From IMG/VR virus record IMGVR_UViG_3300007539_000108, positions 1-31,638 of that record: DNA of 31,638 nucleotides. One strand, given 5' to 3'. Source of the DNA: a virus. Made by a program: the position numbers and the translations under genes. The notes under the pieces are model-generated. The model had not been told where the DNA came from and made no database searches. It worked only from the letters and a program-made list of their open reading frames with translations. This document shows positions 11,965 to 30,925 of this stretch, piece by piece (position 1 is the first letter of the stretch; the number at the start of each line of letters is the position of its first letter).

Positions 11965-12162
11965 ATGGACGAATTAGTAGATATGATGGTTTCTGATGAA
12001 TCACCAACAAAAATATCCGACAAAATTAAAGAAATTCTTTTTTCAAAGAGTGCAGAAAGTATAGATGCTGCAAGACCATATGTTTCATCAAGTCTTTTTG
12101 GTGAAAATGAGTCAGAATTTGAAGATGAAAATGAGGAAGATTTTTCCGATGAGGAAGAATAA
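11965..12162 (+). CDS. 67: Prohead core protein gp67
   Basis: 65 residues starting at the ATG 11965; an upstream TTG at 11947 would add six residues that overlap the promoter spacer and is not used. The N-terminal helix (MDELVDMMVSDESPTKIS) and the very acidic C-terminus (a run of Glu/Asp from about residue 49) are typical of gp67, a small scaffold component digested by the gp21 protease during head maturation. It sits between portal gp20 and protease gp21, exactly as in T4. The stop shares one base with the next start. Confidence 0.85.
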   Translation: MDELVDMMVSDESPTKISDKIKEILFSKSAESIDAARPYVSSSLFGENESEFEDENEEDFSDEEE

Positions 12163-24442: not shown

Positions 24443-24642
24443 TTAGACCAAATTACGAAAAACTAAAACTTAATAAAAAAAGAACAACTCCAGAAAACGT
24501 TAAAGAAGCAAATGAAGGTCTTTTTAGAGCAACTATGAATCTCCCAGAAGCTGCTTTTCATTGTGGGATGACTCAAAAAGAAATGAAAATGACTTTTCTT
24601 GAATACTTAAAATATAATAAATCTGATTATGAGCAAACTTAA
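24439..24642 (+). CDS. 67-residue helical protein between gp44 and the methylase
   Basis: Family not recognised. The protein starts MIRPNYEKLKLNKKRTTPEN and its second half, LPEAAFHCGMTQKEMKMTF, looks like a helix-turn-helix: a helix ending in Cys-Gly, a Gly-Met turn and a second amphipathic helix. It is strictly packed, with an ATGA overlap with gp44 and a 14-base overlap with the methylase start, so it is very probably translated. It is not gp62, which is found further on. A small DNA-binding or regulatory protein is one possibility, with no direct evidence. Confidence 0.65.
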   Translation: MIRPNYEKLKLNKKRTTPENVKEANEGLFRATMNLPEAAFHCGMTQKEMKMTFLEYLKYNKSDYEQT

Positions 24643-25465
24643 AACTCCTCTGAGATATGCTGGAGGTAAAACAAGAGCAATATTAAAAATGAGTAAGTAT
24701 TTTCCAAATCTTGATAACTGTGAGTATTTTTATGAACCTTTTTTGGGTGGTGGAAGTGTTTCAATTTTTATATCTCAAAATTATCCAAACTTAAAAATAA
24801 AAGTAAGTGATTTATATAAACCCTTAATAAATTTTTGGAAAGTACTTCAATGTAATGGTAAAGAACTATCATCTAAAATTTTAGATCTTAAACAAAAAAA
24901 TTCAACACCCGATAAAGCAAAAGTTATTTTTAATGATGCAAAACTTGTTATTAATGATGCTAATCAAAATGATTTTGAAAGAGCAATTGCTTTTTATGTA
25001 GTTAATAAGTGTTCTTTTTCTGGACTTACTGAAGCATCAAGTTTTTCTTCGCAAGCATCAGATCATAATTTTACCGAAAGATCTATAGGATTTCTTTCAG
25101 AATATTCAAACATTATTAGTAATTGGGAAATATCTTGTACTTCTTATGAAGATGTTTTAAAAAATTGCTTTAATAATTCTTTTATTTATTTGGATCCTCC
25201 ATACGACATTAAGGATAATCTCTATGGAAAAAATGGAGAAATGCATAAACATTTTGATCACGATAAATTTTCTGAAAATTGTAACTTGTCTGAATTGAAT
25301 ATGATGATTAGTTATAATTCAAATCAATTGGTAAAAAATAGATTTTCTTTAGATAAGTGGAAAGCATATGAATATACTCACACATACACAATGAGATCAG
25401 TTGGGGATTACATGAGAAATCAACAAGAAAGAAAGGAACTTTTACTTTTGAATTATGATGTATGA
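24629..25465 (+). CDS. dam: Dam-type D12-class adenine-N6 DNA methyltransferase
   Basis: 278 residues. Motif order of the D12/Dam class: PLRYAGGKTRAI (7-18) for the AdoMet/X region, FYEPFLGGGSVSIF (motif I, about 34-47), VSDLYKPLINFW with the acidic AdoMet contact, NKCSFSGLTEAS, and the catalytic DPPYD (189-193). It transfers a methyl group from AdoMet to adenine N6; GATC is the usual Dam target but cannot be read from the sequence. It is lodged between the two clamp-loader genes, overlapping the 67-aa gene by 14 bases and gp62 by about 11, so it is expressed with the replisome. Intact; it may protect phage DNA or mark new strands (inference). Confidence 0.92.
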   Translation: MSKLKTPLRYAGGKTRAILKMSKYFPNLDNCEYFYEPFLGGGSVSIFISQNYPNLKIKVSDLYKPLINFWKVLQCNGKELSSKILDLKQKNSTPDKAKVIFNDAKLVINDANQNDFERAIAFYVVNKCSFSGLTEASSFSSQASDHNFTERSIGFLSEYSNIISNWEISCTSYEDVLKNCFNNSFIYLDPPYDIKDNLYGKNGEMHKHFDHDKFSENCNLSELNMMISYNSNQLVKNRFSLDKWKAYEYTHTYTMRSVGDYMRNQQERKELLLLNYDV

Positions 25466-25841
25466 ATTGAAAGATTGGTTAAATTCAATCAATAACACAA
25501 AAAAAAATTTAATTAATGAAAATCCCTCATCAGAAAAAAATTATCCTCCGTATATTATTAATCGTTGTCTTTCTGGACATATTGATGCAATTATGTTTGC
25601 AAATGAAATGAATATGTTTTATTTTTTACCAAAAAAGATGCAATATGATTTCTTTATAAATAGTTTGCGAAAAAGAAAAAGATTTTCTCCTTGGATTCGT
25701 CAAGAGTCAATTAAAGATCTTGATTATGTCAAAAAATATTATGGTTATAATAATGAAAAGGCAAAACAAGCTCTGAAAATTCTTACAAAAGAACAACTTA
25801 ATTTTATTAAATCTAAATTTGATGTCGGAGGACAAAAATGA
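25455..25841 (+). CDS. 62: Clamp loader small subunit gp62
   Basis: 128 residues, or 127 if the second ATG (25458) is used; T4 gp62 is larger (about 187). The segment YPPYIINRCLSGHIDAIMFA, the later LRKRKRFSPWIRQ and the terminal NNEKAKQALKILTKEQLNFI correspond by eye to T4 gp62 (a 'NALSQFPECM', 'RGKRYGKWAK' pattern). It is the single subunit that completes the gp44/62 loader. It is separated from gp44 by two inserted genes. The stop overlaps the regA start (ATGA). Confidence 0.88.
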   Translation: MMYELKDWLNSINNTKKNLINENPSSEKNYPPYIINRCLSGHIDAIMFANEMNMFYFLPKKMQYDFFINSLRKRKRFSPWIRQESIKDLDYVKKYYGYNNEKAKQALKILTKEQLNFIKSKFDVGGQK

Positions 25842-26272
25842 GTACAATTAAAGAACCTGAAATTAAATGGACACCAGAGCAAATGGTTGAAGTGATTTTA
25901 AATGAACCTGATGATTTTCTTAAAGTTCGTGAAACATTAACTAGAATTGGAGTTGCTTCAAGAAAGGAAAAGAAAATATATCAATCCTGTCATATTTTAC
26001 ACAAAAGGGGAAAATACTATCTTGTCCATTTTAAAGAATTATTTGCTTTAGATGGAAAACACGCAAATCTTACACTTAATGACATTCAAAGAAGAAATAG
26101 AATCATTCAGTTAATTTCTGATTGGGGTCTTATTAGTGTTGTTTCTCCAGATAAAATTACTGATATAGCTCCATTAAATCAAATAAAAGTATTGTCTTAT
26201 AAAGAAAAAAATGATTGGGTTTTAGAAACAAAATATAACATTGGAAAAAAAGAAATCCAAAAAGAAAGTTAA
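25838..26272 (+). CDS. regA: Translational repressor RegA
   Basis: 144 residues (T4 about 122). The core DDFLKVRETLTRIGVASRKE, followed by KKIYQSCHILHKRGKYYLVH and FKELFALDGKHANLTLND, is nearly T4 RegA. The extra length is an N-terminal stretch (EPEIKWTPEQMVEVILNEP) and a short tail. RegA binds AU-rich sites over the start codons of early mRNAs, including clamp and clamp-loader genes in T4, and its own. It is co-located with those genes here and overlaps gp62 by four bases. Confidence 0.96.
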   Translation: MSTIKEPEIKWTPEQMVEVILNEPDDFLKVRETLTRIGVASRKEKKIYQSCHILHKRGKYYLVHFKELFALDGKHANLTLNDIQRRNRIIQLISDWGLISVVSPDKITDIAPLNQIKVLSYKEKNDWVLETKYNIGKKEIQKES

Positions 26273-26291: not shown

Positions 26292-26321
26292 TTTACTAAA
26301 TTTTATTGATTGATATATAAT
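26292..26321 (+). promoter_or_regulatory. Sigma70-like promoter for hsp20
   Basis: TTTACT (26292-26297), 18-base spacer, TATAAT (26316-26321), in the 110-base gap between regA and hsp20. A start near 26328 gives a leader of about 55 bases. The octamer ATGCCGAA occurs on both sides of the promoter (26283-26290 and 26331-26338). Confidence 0.65.
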
Positions 26322-26330
26322 TAATGATGG

Positions 26331-26347
26331 ATGCCGAAAGGGTTCAT
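26331..26347 (+). promoter_or_regulatory. Small GNRA-tetraloop hairpin in hsp20 leader
   Basis: ATGCC and GG...CAT arms close a GAAA tetraloop at 26336-26339 (CC/GG at 334-335 and 340-341, ATG/CAT at 331-333 and 345-347, three-base bulge GTT). Short, so only suggestive. Confidence 0.35.
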
Positions 26348-26358
26348 TATTAATCAAA

Positions 26359-26376
26359 TCTCGCTTACAAAGGAGA
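26359..26376 (+). promoter_or_regulatory. ROSE-like RNA thermometer hairpin masking the hsp20 Shine-Dalgarno
   Basis: TCTCGCTT (26359-26366) pairs with AAGGAGA (26370-26376) across a three-base loop. All seven Shine-Dalgarno bases are paired, and a single G (26363) is bulged opposite AGGA. The anti-Shine-Dalgarno strand contains UCGCU, matching the UYGCU signature and bulged G of ROSE thermometers, which also control small heat-shock genes. The start codon follows at 26383. Confidence 0.6.
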
Positions 26377-26382
26377 AGCAAA

Positions 26383-26817
26383 ATGACTAATCTCACAAGA
26401 TATTCTCATAGAGAACTTCCTGACCTTATGGATAAAATTGTTCGTAATGGTATTGGAATGGAAGATTATTTTGATCGTTTATTTAATATTCACGAAACAA
26501 CTTCTAATTATCCTCCATACAATCTTGTACAAGTAAGTAATGTAGAATCTCGTTTAGAAATTGCACTTGCAGGATTCAAAAAGAAAGAAGTCTTTGTCTA
26601 TACTCAAGACGGAAAACTCTTTGTGGAAGGACAAAAAGAAGACAAAGAAACCGAAACTGACTACTTACATAAAGGTCTTGCTCAACGGTCATTTACACGT
26701 ACTTGGACACTCTCTGATGAAACGGAAGTTAGATCAGTTGATTTTGAGGATGGGCTTTTGACAATTGTTCTTGGTAAGGTTATTCCAGAAAAACATAAAA
26801 GGAAAGATTATCTCTAA
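26383..26817 (+). CDS. hsp20: Small heat shock protein Hsp20
   Basis: 144 residues, the usual length for IbpA-type proteins. The N-terminus SHRELPDLMDKIVRNGIGME, then YFDRLFN, resembles bacterial Hsp20. The alpha-crystallin domain spans about 45-140: RLEIALAGFKKKEVFVYTQD, KLFVEGQKEDK, GLAQRSFTRTWTLSDETEVR, and FEDGLLTIVLGKVIPE with the I/L-x-I/V region. These are ATP-independent holdases that keep unfolding proteins soluble; Hsp20 is commonly carried by cyanomyoviruses. It has its own promoter, the best Shine-Dalgarno in the window (AGGAG) inside a hairpin, and its own terminator, so it forms a separate transcription unit. Confidence 0.95.
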   Translation: MTNLTRYSHRELPDLMDKIVRNGIGMEDYFDRLFNIHETTSNYPPYNLVQVSNVESRLEIALAGFKKKEVFVYTQDGKLFVEGQKEDKETETDYLHKGLAQRSFTRTWTLSDETEVRSVDFEDGLLTIVLGKVIPEKHKRKDYL

Positions 26818-27516: not shown

Positions 27517-30008
27517 GATTTTATACCAATGTTTATGAAAAATTTAATAAAATATTTGTTAGAGGGTATGAAAATGGAGAGTATTTTTCATTAGAGGAAG
27601 AATACTCTCCAACACTTTATGTTCCAACTAAAAAAGAAAGTAAATATAAAACATTGGATGGAAAAAATGTAGAGCCAATAAAACCTGGAAAAATATCAGA
27701 CTGCAAAGAATTTTTTAAAAAATATGAATTTGTTGATGGATTTCCAATTTATGGTAATGATAACTACAAAGCACAATACATTTCTGAAAAATATCCAGAA
27801 GATGAAATAAAATTTGATATTAATAAAATAAGATTAGTTACTATTGATATTGAGGTTGCATCTGAAGGTGGATTTCCTAATGTTTTTGACTGTGCAGAAG
27901 AACTCTTAGCTATTACCATTCAGAATTATGCGACAAAAAGAATTGTTTGCTTTGGATCTAGACCATATAACAATACTCGTAAAGATGTTGCATATTATCA
28001 ATGTTCAGATGAAATTGATTTAATACATAAGTTCCTCTCTTTTTGGGAAGAATATACTCCAGATGTTGTTACTGGATGGAACTGCGAACTTTACGATATA
28101 CCATATATTGCTGGGAGGATAGAAAGAGTTCTTGGTGAAAAAGAAGCTTATCGTTTGTCTCCTTGGAGAAGCATTTTCAAAAAAGAAATGGTCATAGCTG
28201 GAAGAAATCAAATTTCTTATAAAATAGCAGGAATATCTGTGATTGATTATTTGGATTTGTATAAGAAATTTACTTACACAAATCAAGAAAGTTATCGTCT
28301 TGATCATATTGCTTTTGTTGAACTTGGAGAGAAAAAACTTGACCACTCTGAATATGAAACATTTAAAGACTTTTATACGCAAAACTGGCAAAAATTTATA
28401 GACTATAACATAAAAGACGTAGAGCTTGTAGATAGACTTGAAGATAAAATGAAGTTAATAGAACTTTGTTTTACTATGGCGTATGATGCTAAAGTTAATT
28501 ATGAAGATGTTTTTTATCAGGTTCGTATGTGGGATTGTATTATTTTTAATTACTTAAAGAAAAAAAATATTGTAATTCCAAAAAAAGATAGGTCCATAAA
28601 AAATGATAAGTATGCTGGTGCTTATGTAAAAGAACCTATACCTGGAAAATATGAGTATGTTGTAAGTTTTGATCTTAATTCTCTATATCCACATTTGATT
28701 ATGATGTATAATGTCTCTCCAGAAACATTGATGGAAAATAAACATCCATCTGTTTCTGTAGAAAAAATTCTTAACAATCAAATTGATTTTAGTGAATATA
28801 AGGAATACGCAGTATGTCCTAATGGGGCAATGTATCGTAAAGATGTTCGTGGATTTCTTCCAGAATTAATGGAAAAGATGTATGGGGAACGTAAAATCTT
28901 TAAGAAGAAAATGCTTGAAGCAAAGCAAAAATACGAGAAGACTCCCACCAAAGCACTAGAAAAGGAAATTGCTAGATGTAATAATATTCAGATGGCAAAA
29001 AAGATTTCTTTGAATTCTGCTTATGGTGCTATTGGCAATCAATATTTTAGATACTACAAACTTGCAAATGCAGAAGCAATTACATTATCTGGACAAGTAT
29101 CTATTAGATGGATTGAAAACAAAATGAATGATTATCTAAATAATCTTTTAAAAACAAAAGATGTAGATTATGTCATTGCATCTGACACTGATTCAATTTA
29201 TCTTAATCTTGGACCTCTTGTTACTAAATTTTTTAGTAATAAATCTGACAATAAAGCAGCAATTGTGGATATACTTGATAAGATCTGCAAAGATAAATTG
29301 GAACCGTTTATCGACGCTAGTTATCAGGAACTTGCAGAGTATGTTTCGGCATATGAACAAAAAATGCAAATGAAAAGAGAGAATATTGCTGATAGTGGTA
29401 TTTGGACTGCAAAGAAGCGTTATATTCTTAATGTGTGGGATAGTGAAGGCGTTAGATATGAAAGTCCTAAACTTAAAATTATGGGTATCGAAGCTGTTAA
29501 ATCTTCTACTCCAGCACCTTGTCGTAAGATGATTAAAGATGGATTGGAAATTGTAATGAGTAAAACTGAAGATGAAGTAATTTCTTACATAGATAATTGT
29601 AGAGCAATTTTTAATAGTCTTTCTCCTGAAGAAATTTCATTTCCCCGTACAGTTTCTGATGTTTCTAAGCATAAATCGTCTTCTACAATTTATGGAAAAG
29701 GAACACCAATTCACGCTAGAGGAGCACTTATATATAATTACTTAATTAAACAAAAAAAATTAGACAAGAAGTATGCATCTATACAAAATGGAGAAAAAAT
29801 TAAGTTTTGTTATTTGAAAGTTCCAAATCCAATAGGTGAAAATGTAATTTCATTTATTCAAGATTTTCCAAAAGAACTTAATCTCGACAAATATATTGAT
29901 TATGAGTTACAATTTGAAAAAGCATTTCTCGATCCAATGAAAGTTATTTTGGATTCAATTGGTTGGAGAGTGGAAAAAACAATTACTTTGGAGGACTTTT
30001 TCGTATAA
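27513..30008 (+). CDS. 43: DNA polymerase gp43
   Basis: 831 residues (T4 about 898). Family B polymerase with proofreading exonuclease: Exo I VTIDIEVASEGG (D112, E114, the same numbers as T4), Exo II TGWNCELYDIPY (D195), Exo III YNIKDVELVDRL (D302). Polymerase motifs A FDLNSLYPHL (386-395), B KKISLNSAYGAIG (496-508) and C ASDTDSIY (556-563) are all intact. The C-terminus carries a FLDPMKVILDSIGW segment and ends in TLEDFFV, a plausible clamp-binding tail. It is not interrupted, unlike the neighbouring uvsX. The stop shares one base with the uvsX start. Confidence 0.98.
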   Translation: MRFYTNVYEKFNKIFVRGYENGEYFSLEEEYSPTLYVPTKKESKYKTLDGKNVEPIKPGKISDCKEFFKKYEFVDGFPIYGNDNYKAQYISEKYPEDEIKFDINKIRLVTIDIEVASEGGFPNVFDCAEELLAITIQNYATKRIVCFGSRPYNNTRKDVAYYQCSDEIDLIHKFLSFWEEYTPDVVTGWNCELYDIPYIAGRIERVLGEKEAYRLSPWRSIFKKEMVIAGRNQISYKIAGISVIDYLDLYKKFTYTNQESYRLDHIAFVELGEKKLDHSEYETFKDFYTQNWQKFIDYNIKDVELVDRLEDKMKLIELCFTMAYDAKVNYEDVFYQVRMWDCIIFNYLKKKNIVIPKKDRSIKNDKYAGAYVKEPIPGKYEYVVSFDLNSLYPHLIMMYNVSPETLMENKHPSVSVEKILNNQIDFSEYKEYAVCPNGAMYRKDVRGFLPELMEKMYGERKIFKKKMLEAKQKYEKTPTKALEKEIARCNNIQMAKKISLNSAYGAIGNQYFRYYKLANAEAITLSGQVSIRWIENKMNDYLNNLLKTKDVDYVIASDTDSIYLNLGPLVTKFFSNKSDNKAAIVDILDKICKDKLEPFIDASYQELAEYVSAYEQKMQMKRENIADSGIWTAKKRYILNVWDSEGVRYESPKLKIMGIEAVKSSTPAPCRKMIKDGLEIVMSKTEDEVISYIDNCRAIFNSLSPEEISFPRTVSDVSKHKSSSTIYGKGTPIHARGALIYNYLIKQKKLDKKYASIQNGEKIKFCYLKVPNPIGENVISFIQDFPKELNLDKYIDYELQFEKAFLDPMKVILDSIGWRVEKTITLEDFFV

Positions 30009-30925
30009 TGGATTTTTTAAAAGATATTGTAAAAGAAATTGGAGGAGATTATACTAAAATCGCATCAGATATCGATGAAACTGAGACTTATGTTGATACA
30101 GGTTCGTACATTTTTAATGCATTGGTTTCAGGTAGTATATTTGGTGGTGTATCTGGGAATAAGATTACTGCCATTGCTGGGGAGTCTTCTACTGGCAAAA
30201 CTTTCTTCTCTCTCGCTGTTGTTAAAAATTTTCTTGATAGTAATCCAGATAGTTACTGTCTATATTTTGATACTGAGGCTGCCATCACTAAATCTCTTTT
30301 GGAAAGTCGTGGAGTTGATACATCAAGAACTGTCGTTGTTAATGTAGTTACGATTGAAGAGTTTCGTAGTAAAGCACTAAAAGCAGTTGATATTTATTTA
30401 AAGAAACCTGTAGAAGAACGCAAACCCTGTATGTTTGTGTTAGACTCTTTGGGTATGCTTTCTACAGATAAAGAAATTAAAGATGCATTAGATGATAAGC
30501 AAGTTCGTGATATGACCAAATCACAACTTGTAAAGGGTGCTTTCAGAATGCTAACTTTGAAGTTGGGTCAAGCAAACATTCCTATGATTGTGACTAACCA
30601 CGTATATTCCGTAATTGGACAATATGTTCCTATGCAGGAAATGGGTGGGGGTTGTTTAGTTGCGGGAACTAAGATACAAACAGAAAATGGTTCTATTCCT
30701 ATTGAATCTATTCAAGTTGGTGACAAAGTGAGAACTATGTTTGGTTATTCATCAGTTACTCACACTTTCCATTTTACCGACAAAGATGTTTATGAATTGG
30801 AATTGGAGGATGGAGAAACTATTAGATGTTCTGGTGAACATAAGTTTTTAGTAGATACTGAAGATGGTTATGAATGGAAATCCGTTACTGAGTTATTACC
30901 TTCAGATACTATCAAATCTATGTGA
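30008..30925 (+). CDS. uvsX: UvsX N-terminal half fused to a split-intein N-fragment
   Basis: 305 residues from ATG 30008; the TTG frame back to 29963 overlaps gp43 and is rejected. Residues 1-215 are UvsX, the RecA-like strand-exchange protein: Walker A AGESSTGKT (57-65), CLYFDTEAAI, Walker B CMFVLDSLG (141-149), VTNHVYSVIGQY, ending QEMGGG. At C216 the sequence switches to an intein: CLVAGTKIQTENG (block A), IQVGDKVRTMFGY, GETIRCSGEHKFLV (block B, His63 of the intein), and stops after 90 intein residues. The rest of UvsX (roughly 130-170 residues by family length) and the intein C-half are absent from the window. The product should be inactive alone and become UvsX by protein trans-splicing. 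Comparable to the gp41-1 class of split inteins, whose N-half is 88 residues and has 'CSEEH' at block B. Confidence 0.93.
   Translation: MDFLKDIVKEIGGDYTKIASDIDETETYVDTGSYIFNALVSGSIFGGVSGNKITAIAGESSTGKTFFSLAVVKNFLDSNPDSYCLYFDTEAAITKSLLESRGVDTSRTVVVNVVTIEEFRSKALKAVDIYLKKPVEERKPCMFVLDSLGMLSTDKEIKDALDDKQVRDMTKSQLVKGAFRMLTLKLGQANIPMIVTNHVYSVIGQYVPMQEMGGGCLVAGTKIQTENGSIPIESIQVGDKVRTMFGYSSVTHTFHFTDKDVYELELEDGETIRCSGEHKFLVDTEDGYEWKSVTELLPSDTIKSM
30653..30922 (+). other. Split intein N-fragment (IntN) coding segment
   Basis: Ninety codons from the catalytic Cys1 (TGT 30653-30655) to the last codon before TGA. Block A CLVAGTKI; block B with the C-S-G-E-H variant of TxxH; no block F/G (no terminal His-Asn) and no endonuclease domain in frame. 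Length and end point match known split-intein N-halves rather than a truncated cis-intein. Confidence 0.9.

Follow-up and report, generated by a model that had tools for sequence, protein, structure and literature searches.

A probable two-hairpin, ROSE-like RNA thermometer in the leader of phage hsp20 genes

A two-hairpin RNA thermometer in the leader of Pseudomonas ibpA has been demonstrated by probing, toeprinting and reporters, and a transcript-stabilising role has been proposed for hairpin I of that element (PMC3669281). In E. coli, Cedecea and Vibrio, IbpA binds its own leader and represses its own 5'UTR via arginine 93, for which, as tested in E. coli, it also needs an aromatic residue at position 34 (PMC10474464). 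RNA thermometers known from phages are those of lambda cIII, SPbeta blyA (fourU) and Caudoviricetes sigma70 (fourU) (PMC11182007). In oceanic cyanophages hsp20 is a core gene whose role has been guessed at (PMC3037559). No report linking phage or cyanophage hsp20 to RNA thermometers was found in the open-access literature and, as far as was searched, a ROSE-like thermometer is previously unreported in phages. The phage hsp20 leader described below is read as a short two-hairpin ROSE-like RNA thermometer, with a probability of roughly 80%.

The DNA analysed, hereafter the window, is a 31,638-nt stretch of IMG/VR record IMGVR_UViG_3300007539_000108 (positions 1 to 31,638). It is part of a T4-like phage and encodes Gp23 (major capsid protein), clamp loader subunits, RegA, Hsp20 and a family B DNA polymerase; its gene order around hsp20 is identical to that of Synechococcus phage S-T4 (gp62-regA-hsp20-two ORFs-gp43). 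Two further ORFs of the window were noted: a D12-class adenine methyltransferase gene (24629-25465) is flanked by both clamp-loader genes, and a RecA/UvsX-like ORF (29963-30925) has a C-terminal part matching intein splicing (Hint) domains. The hsp20 leader, from the end of regA (26272) to the hsp20 start (26383), is 110 nt long, and its features are collected in Table 1. The promoter-like site in the leader scores at roughly chance level given the AT-rich region; in relatives, boxes resembling TATAAT or TATAAATA lie at the equivalent place, immediately 5' of hairpin I. Transcription from the TATAAT box would give an mRNA whose predicted first nucleotides coincide approximately with the base of hairpin I.

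Table 1. Features of the hsp20 leader in the window, and loci in other viral records at which the element precedes other genes.
Feature	Record	Coordinates	Strand	Remarks
hsp20	window	26383-26817	+	IbpA-like small heat-shock protein of 144 aa; start codon ATG at 26383; PF00011, E=2e-14
regA (translational repressor)	window	25838-26272	+	upstream neighbour of hsp20; PF01818, E=4e-45
Promoter-like site, TTTACT-18-TATAAT	window	26292-26321	+	-10 at 26316-26321; 10/12 matches
Hairpin I, AUGGAU[G]CC-GAAA-GGGUUCAU	window	26327-26347	+	bulged G26333; loop 26336-26339
Hairpin II (ROSE hairpin), UCUC[G]CUU-ACA-AAGGAGA	window	26359-26376	+	sequesters the Shine-Dalgarno; sequence read and MFE
Anti-SD arm, UCUCGCUU	window	26359-26366	+	contains UCGCU (UYGCU motif); G26363 bulged
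Shine-Dalgarno, AAGGAGA	window	26370-26376	+	sequence read
ROSE-like two-hairpin leader before dnaK (Hsp70)	L426; L427; L452; L522; L456; L436	L427 15422-15479; L452 722-777; L522 5596-5654	- (L427)	usually beside hsp20 with its own copy
ROSE-like leader before groES, then groEL	L530; L584; 58.6 kb viral record	L530 10726-11061; L584 8343-9968		beside ROSE-led hsp20 and heme oxygenase
Element before helical, phasin-like ORFs	L106; L117; L163; L180; L210; L442; L500; L573; L575			

Hairpin II is built from the pairs U26359-A26376, C26360-G26375, U26361-A26374, C26362-G26373, C26364-G26372, U26365-A26371 and U26366-A26370 around a 3-nt loop (A26367-C26368-A26369), and an unpaired linker separates it from hairpin I. 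The original prediction had paired the complete Shine-Dalgarno (SD) with the anti-SD arm across a three-base loop with one G bulged; direct reading confirmed this, as did the MFE structure, which contains the hairpin II pairing with bulged G26363. The UCGCU said to lie in the anti-SD strand is present at 26361-26365, opposite AGGA, and the small upstream hairpin with a GAAA loop was likewise recovered as hairpin I, in which the bulged G26333 had gone unmentioned. A further claim, that other strong SD sites looked at in the window (gp18, gp19, gp22, gp23) are not obviously sequestered in this way, held as far as the ROSE motif is concerned, the window having a single copy of it (pattern CTCGCTTN{2,9}AGGAG, one occurrence against 0.01 expected), and did not hold for predicted pairing generally, as several other start regions fold over their own SD in silico (e.g. 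the ORFs at 12162 and 13131).

The original prediction had made itself depend on conservation and covariation of the hairpin in related phages, and both were found. Leaders were located via protein similarity: to Hsp20 relatives in IMG/VR were added those found with divergent Hsp20s as queries and those of named phages. CUYGCU...AGGAG was present in 248 of the 250 phage hsp20 leaders so collected, which are related and do not represent 250 independent events (motif-positive leaders numbered 38 at 85% dereplication). The two exceptions are near-variants: UUCGCU in one viral record (L359), and a degenerate CUUGCG in the Pseudomonas jumbo phage Ettore. Vibrio phage IBT_VpB-34 carries hsp20 without the element. 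Among the best 80 Hsp20 relatives in IMG/VR, CTCGCTT-N(2-9)-AGGAG was found in all 80, once per locus and directly before hsp20, and the rest of the leader sequence diverges widely. Protein-independent scans of DNA only, both of which were samples of viral contigs, pointed to the same gene: CTCGCTTN{2,9}AAGGAGN{3,12}ATG matched at least 120 viral stretches, the great majority of them before hsp20 genes, very divergent ones included, and the UUGCU version (CTTGCTT) was found in at least 123 instances, with 99 of 123 among the matches listed lying before hsp20. In each of 21 large phage records the motif was present at hsp20; additional copies were few, and a backward control pattern gave one occurrence in total; cyanobacterial host genomes were sampled by one control genome. 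Two matches fell in cellular genomes: cyanophage-like hsp20 genes were observed in CP070751.1 (L395) and JALQTA010000024.1 (L396), from Thermoplasmata and Paceibacterota MAGs, and are probably phage contamination of the bins.

A covariance model was trained on 21 leaders, that of the window included. Run on 100 sources totalling 651 kb, it picked out the leader of hsp20 in nearly every one and gave hardly any matches elsewhere, and it aligned to the window at 26327-26385 with 59.7 bits, the window being one of the 21 training sequences. In the covariance-model alignment 90.9% of cells were paired, a share that fell to 44-56% when the partners were slid. Covariation is strong in hairpin I, where six of the eight pairs have two-sided changes. 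Of 94 dereplicated leaders, 64 contain its strict form with the bulged G, compared with 0.9 for shuffled sequences; in a regular-expression count of hairpin I, pairs 1-3 are paired by construction, hence the shuffle control and the covariance model. Hairpin II is nearly invariant: UYGCU is kept and two-sided changes are confined to the end pairs. The third core pair is C-G in 94 rows and U-G in 8, which is the Y of UYGCU; the apical pair is U-A in 94 rows and A-U in 2; and the outer pair is unpaired in most rows, with U-A or C-G in the others. Covariation at the core of hairpin II is thin owing to this high conservation, and the anti-SD side can hardly covary because the ribosome fixes the SD side; conservation of the anti-SD arm is, on these alignments, a signal in itself. 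RNAalifold recovered both hairpins unaided on the covariance-model alignment, which leans towards the model.

The features of sequence, structure and gene context that characterise ROSE-like elements were found at this locus. The leader is the 5'UTR of a small heat-shock gene, with PF00011 encoded immediately downstream; it has two hairpins (the range being 2-4) with the SD inside the last one; a U(U/C)GCU anti-SD is imperfectly paired with the SD, the Y being C or U in relatives; and the anti-SD strand carries a bulged G, present via the motif in 248 of 250 leaders. At permissive settings the Rfam ROSE_3 model (RF02523) aligned over positions 1-69 of its 69 to 26325-26388, with 23.7 bits and E=0.0028 for the 131 bases searched, and other phage leaders gave 34.9-36.6 bits (E as low as 2e-7). 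The gathering score of 43 bits was not reached in any phage record tested (23.7 in the window, 36.6 at best); at gathering threshold Rfam returned nothing in the window, and tRNAs only in 20 relatives. The phage element is not a member of RF02523 as curated. In the opposite direction, the phage covariance model found the leaders of E. coli ibpB (E=2e-6) and ibpA (E=0.002), a region annotated as ROSE. A fourU thermometer was ruled out, the anti-SD strand being UCUCGCUU and not four U, and a cyanobacterial hsp17-type thermometer was ruled out by the two hairpins and by an AUG outside the SD stem. Two ROSE elements in 'Campylobacter phage A18a' (MG065686.1, L223, unverified) were rejected: they belong to a stretch of E. 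coli ibpAB that matches E. coli chromosomes without differences and is evidently a contaminant, and that region was kept as a positive control only.

The leader is called ROSE-like by architecture, because the two-hairpin layout, the UYGCU motif and the combination of a stable first hairpin with a melting second one match Pseudomonas ibpA; heat-dependent melting and a heat response are what we infer from that class. The mechanism proposed for this element is that hairpin I would stably cap the transcript at its 5' end, and that in a cool or unstressed cell CUCGCUU would be paired with AAGGAG around the bulged G, hiding the SD. A rise in temperature would open this stem, which the bulged G makes less stable; ribosomes would bind and Hsp20 would be made, so that phage hsp20 would be translated mainly at raised temperature. 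Hsp20 would then hold host and virion proteins, presumably to the benefit of infection.

Folding calculations bear on parts of this scheme. The folding energy of the single sequence against shuffles was unexceptional (z = -0.01 for 26328-26390, z = -1.39 for the whole leader). Deletion of G26363 in silico took hairpin II from -3.8 to -7.6 kcal/mol with the SD fully closed, a stabilisation in the same direction as that of the repressed Pseudomonas mutants (PMC3669281). SD opening with temperature in ViennaRNA was shallow and did not separate hsp20 from ordinary genes, and the E. coli ibpA control was also not reproduced by this calculation. Predicted hairpin stabilities were -2.6 to -3.8 kcal/mol in several cyanophages and -4.6 and -5.1 kcal/mol in E. 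coli, while a divergent phage group (L295) has a hairpin as stable as those of E. coli (-5.5 kcal/mol); weaker cyanophage hairpins would fit cooler water, which in view of the divergent group is only suggestive. In some relatives, such as S-CRM01, other local pairings were preferred in silico.

The element also precedes other phage chaperone genes, being present two or three times in several large phage records. One 215-kb record with a terminase (G015) has it before hsp20, before dnaK and before a 73-aa ORF, and in four further records, among them one with a terminase (G040), dnaK and hsp20 each have their own copy. In another (G044) it stands before groES, with groEL directly after, and again before hsp20. 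A loose set of helical ORFs of 63-92 aa, without profile match and phasin-like to the eye, has the element upstream in at least seven records. The phage status of these multi-element records is based on IMG/VR classification and, for some, on terminase matches. Separately, a weaker copy (24.4 bits) was observed upstream of an AhpC/TSA peroxiredoxin gene in one record (L093, 2468-2524, minus strand). The ROSE-like leaders on hsp20, dnaK, groES-groEL and the small helical ORFs are a candidate chaperone regulon.

The most serious rival, or partner, of the thermometer is an autogenous sensor of aggregates, in which free phage Hsp20 would bind its own ROSE leader and block translation until denatured or over-produced proteins titrate it away, so that the hairpin would read folding load instead of, or besides, temperature. 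Such a role is compatible with a thermometer and would suit lytic infection, during which large amounts of newly made protein fill the cell; we consider it possible, at clearly less than even odds. The window Hsp20 keeps the arginine equivalent to R93 of E. coli IbpA (AQRSF) and an aromatic residue equivalent to Y34, and among phage Hsp20s these were present in 259/260 proteins with the element and in 268/268, respectively, with R97 in 247/260. K98 is not conserved among the aligned phage proteins, the arginine may be retained for chaperone reasons, and the copies before dnaK, groES and small ORFs would need control in trans. The conserved arginine and aromatic residues are compatible with a sensor that would act through hairpin II and are not proof of it. 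Extended to whole genomes, the two or three ROSE-like leaders of a phage might form a heat-shock regulon opened jointly by warming and closed by free Hsp20, with folding load read at the mRNA and without a sigma factor; this is proposed as tentatively as the sensor itself.

A hairpin that occludes the SD irrespective of temperature, setting a low or delayed level of Hsp20 synthesis while hairpin I stabilises the mRNA, would agree with the weak temperature dependence seen in nearest-neighbour folding and with the stabilising role proposed for the Pseudomonas hairpin I (PMC3669281). A perfect stem would suffice for that function, but leaders that lack the bulged G or UYGCU are very rare; the element is mostly absent from other genes of the same genomes, and ROSE-annotated leaders of E. 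coli have this core as well. This explanation is judged unlikely. Still less probable is that RegA, the translational repressor of the phage, uses the leader as an operator: regA adjoins hsp20 in the window, S-T4, P-HM2 and ACG-2014f, but the element is retained without an adjacent regA in P-SSM3, Syn30, S-RIM8 and Melnitz-1, and the same motif is found in bacterial ibpAB. That CTCGCTT is a DNA element, the putative Pho box ATTCAAACTCGCTTAAATA published for S-PM2d hsp20 (PMC10976474), can be given almost no weight, as PhoB did not bind that promoter in gel shifts and the gene did not respond to low phosphate (PMC10976474), the site is the anti-SD arm within the leader, which ATTCAAACTCGCTTAAATA contains, and phages of other hosts, Methylophilales phage Melnitz for example, have it too, the UUGCU variant included.

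The ROSE-like thermometer remains the preferred reading. The anti-SD arm accounts for the published Pho-box prediction that failed (PMC10976474). A leader so nearly universal suggests that many viruses tune chaperone output directly at the mRNA, and a conserved ROSE-like leader leads one to expect that hsp20 responds to heat or to misfolded proteins; the purpose of the chaperone in cyanophages thereby becomes directly testable. With this element, ROSE would join the phage RNA thermometers of PMC11182007, in viruses of abundant aquatic bacteria, and the copies before dnaK and groES would be, as far as is known to us, the first ROSE-type control of those genes.

Compared with the described systems, the known phage thermometers differ from the phage hsp20 leader in being of fourU or lambda types and single cases, with no chaperone genes and no ROSE among them (PMC11182007). 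The cyanobacterial hsp17 thermometer likewise hides the ribosome-binding site of a small heat-shock gene, and in the likely host group; it differs in consisting of one hairpin only, with a 1x3 internal loop and a stem that includes the start codon (PMC4477652). With Pseudomonas ibpA and ROSE_3 the phage leader shares two hairpins, a UYGCU anti-SD, an AUG outside the stem and a small heat-shock gene, and the ROSE_3 consensus hairpin I, GAUGCC...GGGUC, has a bulged G as in the phage, within a full-length model alignment; unlike these, it belongs to a lytic phage, its hairpin II is shorter and AU-rich, and its score is below the Rfam gathering threshold. The E. coli ibpA and ibpB leaders are longer, belong to cellular genes and have an SD hairpin that is more stable in silico, but the ibpB core, ACUCGCUU-cuuag-AAGGAGA, matches the phage hairpin II nearly letter for letter and, as in the phage, has a hairpin-I-like stem (AUGCUCGCCGUCAGGGAGCAU) upstream.
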